Below are positions 50,452-57,020 of a stretch of 64,000 nucleotides of DNA, one piece after another (position 1 is the stretch's first letter; the number at the start of each line of letters is the position of its first letter). Origin of the DNA: Rhodospirillales bacterium BBD 1991-14 (GTDB lineage Bacteria; Pseudomonadota; Alphaproteobacteria; Kiloniellales; Kiloniellaceae); the NCBI GenBank assembly GCA_001657395.1, contig LYSY01000002.1, forward strand, positions 434,001 to 498,000. The letters are read 5' to 3'. Both the position numbers and the translations under genes were made by a program. The notes below the pieces were generated by a model. It ran no database searches. It had not been told where the DNA came from and worked only from the letters and a program-made list of their open reading frames with translations.

Positions 50452-51336
50452 GTGCAGCACAAACGGGTTATCTTTCAGGGGCGTCTCCTGCCCTACATGC
50501 TGGTTCTGCCCCAGCTTGCCATCACCCTTGTCTTCTTCATCTGGCCGGCCTCGCAGGCGCTCTATCAGTCGGTGCTGCTGGAGGACCCCTTCGGCCTGGG
50601 ATCGAACTTCGTCTGGTTCGACAATTTCGAAGACCTCTTTGCCGATCCTTCCTACCTGGCGTCCTTCCAGACCACCATCGTCTTCAGCCTGGGCGTGACC
50701 GCCCTGTCGATGGTGGCCGCCCTGGTGCTGGCCGCCATGGCGGACCGCGTGATCCGCGGCGCCACCGGCTACAAGACGCTGCTGATCTGGCCCTATGCGG
50801 TGGCCCCGGCGGTCGCCGGCATTCTCTGGTGGTTCATGTTCAACCCCTCCATCGGCGTGCTCGCCTATGGCCTGCAGGGGCTCGGGTACGACTGGAACCA
50901 CTACCTGAAGGGCGGCGATGCCATGATCCTGGTGATCATCGCCGCCGCCTGGAAGCAGGTGAGCTACAACTTCCTGTTCTTCCTGGCCGGCATGCAGGCG
51001 ATCCCGAAGTCGCTCATCGAGGCGGCAGCCATCGACGGCGCCGGCCCGGTGAAACGCTTCTGGACCATCATCTTCCCGCTGCTGTCGCCGACCACCTTCT
51101 TCCTGCTGGTGGTCAACGTGGTCTACGCCTTCTTCGACACCTTCGGCATCATCCACGCGACGACGTCAGGCGGGCCGGCCCAGGCGACCACGATCCTGGT
51201 CTTCAAGGTCTACAACGACGGCTTCGTCGGCCTCGATCTCGGCGGCTCCGCCGCCCAGTCAGTGATCCTGATGCTCATCGTCATTGCGCTGACGGTGGTG
51301 CAGTTCCGCTACATCGAGCGCAAGGTCGAGTACTAA
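50452..51336 (+). CDS. ugpA: Glycerol-3-phosphate ABC transporter permease UgpA
   Basis: Inner-membrane permease, 294 residues and six predicted helices, with the ABC coupling loop [22 protein letters not shown]. The GTG start (product [17 protein letters not shown]) follows UgpB by 79 bp; no strong ribosome-binding site is visible. The final stop base is the first base of the inverted-repeat element that separates it from ugpE. Confidence 0.94.
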
Positions 51337-51599
51337 TACCAAGGTGTGGAGATAATGCCCTTCAGAGACTGCACCCGGTGGGTTTTGGCTAGGAGCAGCC
51401 GGCGTGGCGATGCCGGGGCATCGCGAGGCGGTTACGACGCAGTCCAAAACCCACAGGGTGCTGCCGTGCCGGTCCCTTCTGCACCCCTTCGGAGGGCGTC
51501 GAAAGGCCTTGCCGATGTCCCACATCGCCTGCGGCATTTCTCCTACCCGAAAGAGTGCAGAAGGGATCTCTGTGGGGCACTATCTCCACACCTTGGTAT
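51336..51599. mobile_element. 264-bp inverted-repeat element (MITE-like) between ugpA and ugpE
   Basis: Perfect 19-bp terminal inverted repeats (51336-51354 with 51581-51599, beginning ATACCAAGGTG), extended inwards by imperfect pairing. Inside are two large stem-loops: an 18-bp arm with one mismatch (51371-51388 with 51444-51461, containing GTGGGTTTTGG) that itself holds an 8-bp hairpin at 51407-51424, and a 12-bp arm (51473-51484 with 51555-51566). No transposase frame is present. I see no clear target-site duplication. The left end coincides with the ugpA stop codon. Confidence 0.8.
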
Positions 51600-51614
51600 G
51601 GGGGGCGACGCAGC

Positions 51615-52463
51615 ATGATCGAAAACCGCCCCATCTTCACCGCCATCACCCACATCGTGCTCTTCCTGGGCGTGCTGGTGGTGGCCTTTCCGATCTGGCT
51701 GGCCTTCGTCGCCTCGACCTATCCGGTCGAAGGGCTGGTTTCCGGCGTGCTGCCGCTCTGGCCCGGCGATCGGTTCTGGGAGAACTACGGCAGCGCGCTG
51801 ACCGGCGGCGTCGAGGCGGCGGGCAGTCCGCCGGTGCTGCTGATGATGGCGAACAGCATGGTCATGGCGCTGGCCATCGCCACAGGCAAGATCGCCATCT
51901 CCATCATCTCCGCCTTCGCCATCGTCTACTTCAACTTCCCCTTCCGGGTAACCGCCTTCTGGATCATCTTCATCACCCTCATGCTGCCGGTGGAGGTGCG
52001 CATCCTGCCGACCTACGAAGTGGTGGCCGACCTCGGCATGCTGGACAGCTATGCGGGGCTTGCGGTGCCGCTGATCGCCTCGGCGACGGCGACCTTCCTG
52101 TTCCGCCAGTTCTTCCTCACCGTGCCCGACGAACTGCTGGAGGCGGCCCGCATCGACGGTGCCGGCGCGCTGCGGTTCTTCTGGGACATCCTGCTGCCGC
52201 TGTCGCGCACCAACATCGCGGCGCTCTTCGTCATCCTCTTCATCTTCGGCTGGAATCAATATCTCTGGCCGCTTCTGGTGACCACCGACGAGTCCTACTA
52301 CACCATCGTCATGGGCATTCAGCGCATGGTCGCGGTGCCGGATTCAGAGCCGCTCTGGCATCTCATCATGGCCACGGCGATTCTGGCGATGATCCCGCCG
52401 GTCTTCGTCGTCGTGGCCATGCAGCGGCTCTTCGTGAAGGGCCTGGTGGAAACCGAGAAATAA
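51615..52463 (+). CDS. ugpE: Glycerol-3-phosphate ABC transporter permease UgpE
   Basis: Second permease, 282 residues, about six helices, with the coupling loop EAARIDGAGALRFFWDILLPL. The frame runs upstream into the inverted-repeat element, but the ATG at 51615 gives the usual UgpE length and start MIENRPIFTAITH. The only ribosome-binding candidate is the GGGGGG stretch just outside the element, so its expression may depend on sequences changed by the insertion. Confidence 0.94.
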   Translation: MIENRPIFTAITHIVLFLGVLVVAFPIWLAFVASTYPVEGLVSGVLPLWPGDRFWENYGSALTGGVEAAGSPPVLLMMANSMVMALAIATGKIAISIISAFAIVYFNFPFRVTAFWIIFITLMLPVEVRILPTYEVVADLGMLDSYAGLAVPLIASATATFLFRQFFLTVPDELLEAARIDGAGALRFFWDILLPLSRTNIAALFVILFIFGWNQYLWPLLVTTDESYYTIVMGIQRMVAVPDSEPLWHLIMATAILAMIPPVFVVVAMQRLFVKGLVETEK

Positions 52464-56126: not shown

Positions 56127-57020
56127 TTATGCCAGAAGCGCCGCCAGCACCAGCAATACGGCGACCTCCGAGAGCTGCTGGGCGGCGCCCAGGACGTCGC
56201 CGGTATAGCCGCCGATCTGACGCCGGGCCAGGACCGCCATCGCAGCCGAGGCGGCGAATGCGCCGAGCAGCGCCAGGGCTGCGGCATGCCAGGGCAGCAG
56301 CAGTATCGCCGCCAGGACACCGACCGCCGCCGCCGCCAGGGCATCGGCCCCCCGCGGCCGGCCCACCCCGGCGGCGAGACCGTCGGCGCGCGCGCCCGGC
56401 AGGCCGGCCATGATGGCGCCGAGCCCGGCCCGCGACAGGCACTGGGCGGCCAGCAGGGCGATGGCCGCCTGGCCGGCGTCGGCGGCGACGATGGCCGCCA
56501 GGGCGGCGGTGCGCAGCGCCACCGAAAGCACGAGGGCGAGGACCCCGTAGCTGCCGATGCGGCTGTCGCGCATGATGGCGAGCTTGCGCGCGCGGTCGCG
56601 GCCGCCGCCGAAGCCGTCCGCCACGTCCGCCAGGCCGTCCTCATGGAGCGCGCCGGTGGCCAGGATCGTCGCGGCGACCGCCAGAAGGGCAGCGATCAGC
56701 GCCGGCAGCTGAAGCGCGTCGGCCGCCAGCAGAGCCAGGCCGCCCAGGGCGCCGATCAGGGCGCCGATCGCCGGATAGCAGCGGCTTGCGCGGGCCGGGG
56801 GCGCCTGGACCGCTGGGTCCTGGGCCGCTGGGTCCTGGGCCGCCGGCAGCCGCGGTACCGGAAGCCGCGTCAGCAGGGTCAGGGCAACCTTCAGGTCGTG
56901 TCCCCAGGCCGCGGGAGAGGCGGGGGAAGGACCTGGGGCCGGATCTGGGGCCGGATCTGGGACCGGATCTGGGACCGGATCTGGGATCGGACCGGGGCCC
57001 GGATGTGAAGGAGGGGACAT
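56127..57020 (-). CDS. cobS: Adenosylcobinamide-GDP ribazoletransferase CobS
   Basis: Membrane enzyme joining adenosylcobinamide-GDP and alpha-ribazole to make cobalamin. Conserved parts are LTLLTRLPVPR, YPAIGALIGALGG, ATGALHEDGLADVADGFGGG with the metal-binding acidic cluster, and RDSRIGSYGVLAL; several hydrophobic helices follow. The ATG at 57020 adds a ~30-residue Pro/Asp/Ala-rich N-terminus encoded by a 12-bp tandem repeat; the enzyme proper starts at AWGHDLKVALTLL, so the true start could be internal, or the repeat may be an expansion. Confidence 0.9.
   Translation of the reverse strand: MSPPSHPGPGPIPDPVPDPVPDPAPDPAPGPSPASPAAWGHDLKVALTLLTRLPVPRLPAAQDPAAQDPAVQAPPARASRCYPAIGALIGALGGLALLAADALQLPALIAALLAVAATILATGALHEDGLADVADGFGGGRDRARKLAIMRDSRIGSYGVLALVLSVALRTAALAAIVAADAGQAAIALLAAQCLSRAGLGAIMAGLPGARADGLAAGVGRPRGADALAAAAVGVLAAILLLPWHAAALALLGAFAASAAMAVLARRQIGGYTGDVLGAAQQLSEVAVLLVLAALLA
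56810..56839. repeat. 15-bp tandem duplication inside cobS
   Basis: Two exact 15-bp units (56810-56824 and 56825-56839) encode a duplicated AAQDP stretch in a variable loop of CobS. Confidence 0.8.
56929..57000. repeat. 12-bp tandem repeat, six units, in the cobS 5' end
   Basis: Six contiguous 12-bp units of the GGATCTGGGACC type; units 3 and 4 are identical and the others differ at one to four positions. On the minus strand they encode alternating Pro-Asp-Pro-Val/Ala residues in frame. Absence of stop codons and in-frame length suggest a tolerated protein-level repeat. Confidence 0.85.

Follow-up and report, generated by a model that had tools for sequence, protein, structure and literature searches.

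Several described repeats come close to the element analysed here. The Chunjie MITE of Geobacter uraniireducens is about 235 bp long, has terminal inverted repeats and direct repeats and, like our element, has a copy in a phosphate-uptake operon, with dozens elsewhere; the passages of the review that describe it mention no conserved inverted pair of arm heads, and on that description we set it apart (PMC10969869). Correia and ERIC repeats are also MITE-like and are transcribed: mRNA that contains a Correia element is cleaved by RNase III at the terminal repeats, and ERIC copies at the 3' ends of genes alter transcript levels (PMC10969869). They belong to other lineages, and the same passages, on which this comparison by description is based, mention no cross built from two homologous heads (PMC10969869). 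REPINs and REPs resemble our family as inverted pairs of palindromic modules with compensatory changes, and the REPs tagged CGTC are, in the sections of the two papers used here, mainly alphaproteobacterial and without a known transposase; REPINs are shorter than our element, the REPs measuring 20-40 bp (PMC3116915, PMC3733652). Unlike REPINs, our family has long terminal repeats with TNA or TA flanks. The RIME, AB and C repeats of rhizobia, again compared by description, share with it an alphaproteobacterial intergenic setting and a conserved secondary structure (PMC2573895).

Here we analyse an element in the ugp operon of a member of the Kiloniellaceae, contained in a 64,000-nucleotide stretch of DNA (the window, by which we mean that whole stretch). 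The original prediction knew of no named family with these ends, and none has come to light: Rfam gave 0 matches in the window (the one hit at E <= 1 was snoTBR2, with 21.5 bits against a gathering threshold of 62), and a search of the open literature, with subscription papers and preprints mostly outside its reach, returned no description of the family. As far as open papers show, a constant core with changing ends, a near-constant two-fold order and a strand bias are undescribed. We read the window copy as a MITE-like, non-autonomous element that inserted in the stop codon of ugpA and is moved in trans by a DDE transposase, perhaps of the IS5 type, a reading to which we give a probability of about 0.75.

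The element between ugpA and ugpE

The genes around the element are arranged as ugpB, ugpA, element, ugpE and ugpC, and all four score above their NCBIfam cut-offs. The upstream neighbour ugpA (50452-51336, + strand; PRK10561.1, 419.5 bits against a cut-off of 335) ends in a TAA stop codon whose last base is 51336, and the downstream cistron ugpE (51615-52463, + strand; PRK10973.1, 392 bits against 297) starts with an ATG at 51615, 15 bases past 51599. These are the junctions at which the original prediction had placed a 264-bp, transposase-free element, with its left end on the last base of the ugpA stop and its right end 15 bp before ugpE. The perfect 19-bp inverted ends that it reported are the outer, mismatch-free part of longer terminal inverted repeats of 33 nt at 51336-51368 and 51567-51599 (both annotated on the + strand), which are 91% complementary; both are drawn from the inverted-repeat search and from covariation, the left one also from the fold. 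The 264-bp stretch is real, but because other members read TACC...GGTA, the element proper is the 262 bp at 51337-51598 and the outer A and T are target bases. This boundary was set from the TNA triplets beside 47 elements of end class 1, whose ends begin TACCA. No transposase gene lies inside, as had been predicted: in an ORF listing limited to at least 80 aa, every ORF that overlaps the element crosses one of its ends. Between 51200 and 51750, no promoter- or terminator-like site was found. Elsewhere in the window, 56929-57004 holds a tandem repeat with a 12-bp unit (6.3 copies, 87% matches).

Folded as RNA, positions 51330-51605 have an energy of -160.9 kcal/mol, while 200 dinucleotide shuffles average -108.5 (sd 5.5). 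The fold is thus far beyond chance, with z = -9.5 and none of the 200 shuffles as low. A multi-branched, tri-partite cloverleaf had been proposed; the branching is there, but the shape is a four-way cross, in which a terminal stem, arm A, a mini-hairpin of about 9-10 nt and arm B follow one another (terminal stem ~33 nt, arm ~94, mini-hairpin ~9, arm ~94, terminal stem ~33).

Arm A (51369-51462) carries its head on the + strand and is matched by our covariance model of one arm, R1 (see below), at G000:C15:485369-485463 (+ strand, 79.7 bits). Its parts are an outer stem, the letters TAGGAG (51390-51395), an inner stem, a GCGATG...CATCGC hairpin (51407-51424) and CGACGC (51435-51440). The mini-hairpin at the centre of the four-way junction, placed by the RNA fold, occupies 51463-51472 (+ strand). 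Arm B (51473-51566, - strand; R1 match at G000:C15:485473-485566, - strand, 91.3 bits) is homologous to arm A in inverted order, and its parts, read on the + strand, are GCGTCG (51496-51501), CGATG...CATCG (51513-51527) and CTCCTA (51540-51545). An ungapped search places the stem of arm A at 51371-51388 and 51444-51461 (18 nt, 94% complementary), in agreement with a predicted 18-bp arm, and that of arm B at 51473-51492 and 51547-51566 (20 nt, 90% complementary), longer than the 12-bp arm predicted there.

Insertion at the ugpA stop codon

The search for UgpA covered 23 family genomes, and the junctions were read at the 8 of 20 loci (own genome plus seven congeners) where the end of ugpA was matched by pattern, the other 12 loci being unused. 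In all seven same-genus relatives (G016-G022) the ugpA-ugpE junction is short and the element absent; the UgpA of the nearest congener is 99% identical. This comparison of spacing bears out the proposal that an insertion splits the ugp operon. In G017 and G022 the ugpA stop overlaps the ugpE start (TGATG), and in G020 and G021 the empty junction reads TGA, 13 nt, ATG. The window reads TAA, TACC...GGTA, TGG, 13 nt, ATG, with a spacer after the triplet equal in length to that of G020 and G021. Its spacing is therefore that of the G020/G021 empty site plus one triplet, as a 3-bp duplication predicts. A mobile insertion at ugpA-ugpE is close to certain; among the dispersed copies, the window copy is the one for which an empty site was demonstrated. 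A strong, conserved fold in an inter-cistronic position could also mark a fixed, non-mobile cis-regulatory RNA of the ugp operon, which we consider extremely improbable with the junction empty in 7/7 congeners and relatives of the element present at other loci in many genomes.

The original prediction saw, by eye, no target-site duplication. One of 3 bp can in fact be read, in degraded form: the left triplet is TAA (51334-51336, the ugpA stop, TGA in the seven congeners) and the right one is now TGG (51599-51601), which we read as a decayed TGA, so that TAA and TGG may be two copies of TGA with one base changed in each. The two triplets of the window copy differ (TAA/TGG); the duplication is found for its end class: the triplets beside TACC...GGTA are identical in 28 of the 47 end-class-1 elements, against a mean of 14.5 and a maximum of 25 when triplets were shuffled (0/2000 shuffles reach 28). 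These triplets are mostly T-N-A, that is TAA, TTA or TGA. Other end classes mostly read YTA-G...C-TAR (hyphens at the element boundaries), which we take to be a TA duplication, the TA being invariant and several elements departing from the pattern.

Gene frames were assigned from codon-position GC for 103 elements with both flanks assigned and for 107 gene-facing flanks. Neighbouring genes are co-directional at 69 elements, divergent at 18 and convergent at 16; this resembles ordinary intergenic space and gives no evidence of a preference for operons. An in-frame stop stands at the element boundary, TA(A/G), in 45 of the 53 reading frames that reach it, where random phase would give one in three. 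In the window, the relatives show that the stop codon predated the insertion; at other stop boundaries a truncated gene is possible. The simplest reading of the excess is survivorship: some T-N-A and YTAR targets are stop codons, where an insertion leaves both neighbouring genes undamaged. In another genus, a separate, other-ended element (G004:C8:326080-326277, in L282) lies about 108 bp beyond a ugpA match and is apparently an independent insertion near the ugp operon.

A family with constant arms and changing ends

BLAST with the window copy and a search with the 19-bp end each find a single copy in the own genome, which suggested a single-copy, immobile palindrome. That idea was ruled out by relatives in other genomes and by the arm model. 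For R1 we used 21 of the 24 elements delimited by hand, omitting L004, L010 and L026, and 35 of their 42 arms, omitting seven whose head was divergent or whose fold was untidy. In the own genome it gives seven arm matches, which correspond to the window element and three more with other ends (CTA-GAGCACTTTCC, CCCCCACTATCAGG and GTA-GCCAGTTAGG). The search for genome copies proposed in the original prediction thus yields one copy by BLAST or by the end and four elements by the arm model. The family has many end classes, so a 19-bp end search alone misses relatives, and the absence of any other copy, named in the prediction as an argument against mobility, would have misled if judged by BLAST or the end search. 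Two of the own-genome elements, L341 (G000:C10:270373-270629) and L342 (G000:C19:469502-469761), lie a few bases past a stop codon; the next co-directional genes directly after them are putatively UbiD-like and MotB-like, respectively.

Of the 23 family genomes, 11, the own one included, hold relatives that BLAST detects from the window copy. R1 finds arms in 17 of the 23, in 39 of 61 genomes of the order and in 29 of 289 sampled genomes of the class (overlapping sets; for the class sample, E <= 1e-6 with 14 candidates scored per genome), and its per-genome arm counts are to be read as minima. Carriers found by a scan with the exact head pattern (42 stretches) include Pelagibius, Hwanghaeella and genomes of the Kiloniellaceae and Rhodospirillaceae. 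In G039 the class-1 end pattern occurs 66 + 70 times with up to 3 mismatches, and these numbers suggest recent amplification there. In the plasmid and phage sets, BLAST with the window copy gave no match, and the exact head pattern was absent from the viral_contigs set. Plasmid punanmed2 of Agrobacterium sp. MA01 carries a full TACC-class element at 265230-265490 (L343:451-711) with TGA on both sides; this plasmid is mobilizable and is a possible vehicle for the element between orders. In G164 there are short same-ended elements of 139-145 bp, L243 (G164:C16:137948-138092), a single arm carrying the head, and L264 (G164:C3:103589-103727); solo ends stand beside ordinary genes at L242, L256, L263 and L265.

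Extraction by inverted ends, from loci of up to 3500 bases, gave 130 rows, or 124 after six were set aside as chance pairs (the second rows of L009, L010, L101, L124 and L210, and L212); one of the 124, L063 (G051:C306), is wrongly delimited. Two large arms, mostly of 94-101 nt, appear between terminal stems of about 33 bp in 123 of the 124 folds. The presence of arms is partly by construction because the loci came from BLAST or R1; R1 describes one arm, and terminal stem, mini-hairpin and arm order lie outside that model. A sequence profile of the head, which replaced a cruder first call (81 +-, 1 ++, 42 uncalled), gives the head order as +- in 94 of the 124, -+ in 0, -- in 0 and ++ in 3, with one head uncalled in 27. 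The ++ elements are L031, L115 and the wrongly delimited L063, and same-direction pairs outside the 124 are G004:C8:326080-326277 and G038:C253:7781-7977. Nearly all elements are thus two-fold pseudo-palindromes, with exceptions. By R1, L063 holds three successive arms (110-215 +, 225-318 +, 328-433 -) and may be a composite or nested element. The heads point one way in L031:1349-1612 (G001:C15) and in L115 (G164:C22:153276-153470); arm B of L031 has its head reversed within an outer stem common to other copies, possibly by inversion between the stem arms.

Pairing has been kept while stem sequences vary. Among 14 class-1 elements, both partners have changed in 60 of 100 pairs, against 27.6 when shuffled, and 93% of pair cells are standard, against 36-44% with the partner slid by 1-3 columns; the structure was itself drawn from this alignment, which tilts the comparison with slid versions in its favour. 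The 35 arms, which span end classes, have a covariation score of 0.625; shuffling lowers it to 0.208 and sliding to 0.13-0.23. Conserved in the head are its hairpin, GCGATG...CATCG, and the unpaired letters TAGGAG and CGACGC, which face each other across an internal loop. We know of no kink-turn or ribozyme that it matches.

Wobble pairs were counted in those arms that measure exactly 94 nt and contain the head motif, which are 85, or 91 with a looser motif, of the 246 arms in 123 elements. On the head strand (TAGGAG...CGACGC), G.T outnumbers A.C by 146:24 in the 85 arms, which suggests selection on a single strand; in the inner stem the ratio is 93:6 (91 arms), and in the terminal repeats, which have no such orientation, it is 91:96. 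By sequence cluster, G.T leads in 19 of 23, A.C in 1 and 3 are tied; in the consensus of the seven clusters with at least 3 members the count is G.T 11 to A.C 0, and among private changes it is 31 to 14. R1 tolerates wobble pairs and could favour arms that have them, so the count was repeated on arms found by BLAST: in MAFFT columns these give 57:42 overall and 22:3 in the inner stem, and 17 ungapped ones give 15:4 in the outer and 12:1 in the inner stem. Close to the head, then, the bias is solid, but it is weak in the more distant part of the arm. Its presence suggests maintenance of each arm as a single strand in its own direction; the carrier is probably RNA, the simplest candidate, and single-stranded DNA is also possible.

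Pairing of this kind could have another origin. If the two arms corrected each other as quasi-palindromes during replication, the elements would be MITE debris, with heads under no selection for a function as RNA or DNA. Stems that pair almost perfectly while differing greatly in sequence fit this, as do the heads that run in one direction in L031 and L115. Template correction, however, leaves unexplained why the unpaired letters of the head are conserved across end classes, why the +- order is nearly constant and why the seven arm-cluster consensus sequences hold G.T 11 and A.C 0, and we regard this origin as unlikely.

Candidate transposases and proposed workings

The element is short and has no transposase gene, has terminal inverted repeats, and has dispersed copies and an empty site; in the DNA searched, no autonomous IS with the same ends was found. 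In the working sense it is a MITE, as had been proposed from its architecture, in all but a known autonomous partner, and for known MITEs such a partner is often missing. The proposed check for a transposase with matching ends came out negative: no autonomous copy was found in 316 loci (1.0 Mb, partly overlapping), around four of the solo ends of G164 (ORF lists inspected by eye), or through the 19-bp end in the own genome. L021 was rejected as the autonomous partner: it has the only spaced end pair found, and we read the enclosed gene as not a transposase. There, at L021:1338-2399 (G001:C3), a putative hydrolase of metallo-beta-lactamase fold has a full element on one side and a solo end of that element's class on the other, over about 1064 bp.

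Of 14 genomes searched for a DUF4096 (IS5-type) transposase, 9 have insertion sequences that carry one; the own genome gave no match. At 4 of 23 DUF4096 loci (L318, L322, L324 and L330) the ends read YTA-G...C-TAR, as in the TA-flanked element classes, examples being TTA-GGTCGTGTGG and CTA-GGGTCAG. L317 reads TCA-GAGCC...GGCTC-TAA, and the remaining loci gave no pair, a chance-like pair or a repeat of a counted place. Unlike the elements, these insertion sequences measure about 847-1386 bp and have a transposase match, and their ends match those of the elements in the first bases only, with no full terminal match. Target rules of the IS5 family are TNA and YTAR (IS1031 and IS427 groups); the targets of our elements fit them, and the elements resemble the two groups in their TNA and YTA-G...C-TAR flanks. 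By target rule, an IS630-type enzyme could presumably also serve the TA-flanked end classes. Among the DUF4096 loci fetched, no source transposon for the TACC class was found. Recognition of three nucleotides is given, in the relevant section of one paper, as a feature of the IS1031 group (PMC2516522).

A RAYT, a tyrosine transposase of the HUH kind, was considered because the head recalls REPs, which are defined by GTAG and CGTC tags in the section of the source used here (PMC3733652). The heads, in which [G/C]TAGGAG precedes a hairpin and the other strand has CGTC, would then be large REP modules, paired as in REPINs and moved as single-stranded DNA. Two inverted heads and strand-specific pairing agree with this, and Y1_Tnp genes occur in 25 of the 39 genomes of the order that bear elements and in 4 of the 22 that lack them, a count that ignores kinship between genomes. 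As a partner, though, the RAYT is a genome-level correlation that was rejected by a flank test at Y1_Tnp loci: in 30 loci (of 61 Y1_Tnp places) R1 found no arm, with one partial match (E 0.11, L288), and both the own genome and G039, which has at least 69 arm matches, are without Y1_Tnp. The same source gives REPs a length of 20-40 bp and a terminal tag that stays unpaired (PMC3733652), whereas the unit here is a 94-nt arm with the tag-like letters in an internal loop. A 3-bp duplication and long terminal repeats also fit DDE transposition better, and we hold the REPIN-like reading to be very doubtful.

Under the preferred reading, that of a MITE-like element moved in trans, a DDE transposase encoded elsewhere would recognise the terminal repeats and direct the element into T-N-A or (Y)TA(R) sites. 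Stop codons qualify as targets of this kind, and in end class 1 the duplicated triplet would restore the stop; such insertions would survive because both genes stay whole. The heads would be kept as single-strand, most likely RNA, hairpins, as the wobble bias suggests, and since they are inverted, one head would be in sense for either direction of transcription. In the ugp mRNA, the cross would part ugpBA from ugpEC and end the close stop-start spacing of the congeners; it would probably be cut by RNase III or act as a 3' block, changing the ugpBA:ugpEC ratio. The transposase, the RNA function and the effect on ugpEC are all proposed here from sequence comparison.

We also put forward, tentatively and as something we would not bet on, that the heads are a conserved RNA module, long carried within a transposon superfamily that swaps its terminal repeats and transposase (TNA and TA users) while nearly always keeping the two-fold cross, so that transcripts of either strand show one head in sense. 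If this is true, each landing in a stop codon would equip an operon, in genomes across the Alphaproteobacteria, with a ready-made RNA device at the 3' end or between cistrons. The family is partly hidden from BLAST (11/23 family genomes, against 17/23 with the structure model), and end-based MITE finders would split it into many families. It is now possible to test what recognises the head and which transposases act on each end class. With stop codons as harmless landing sites, these elements would offer a concrete route by which operons gain inter-cistronic structures.
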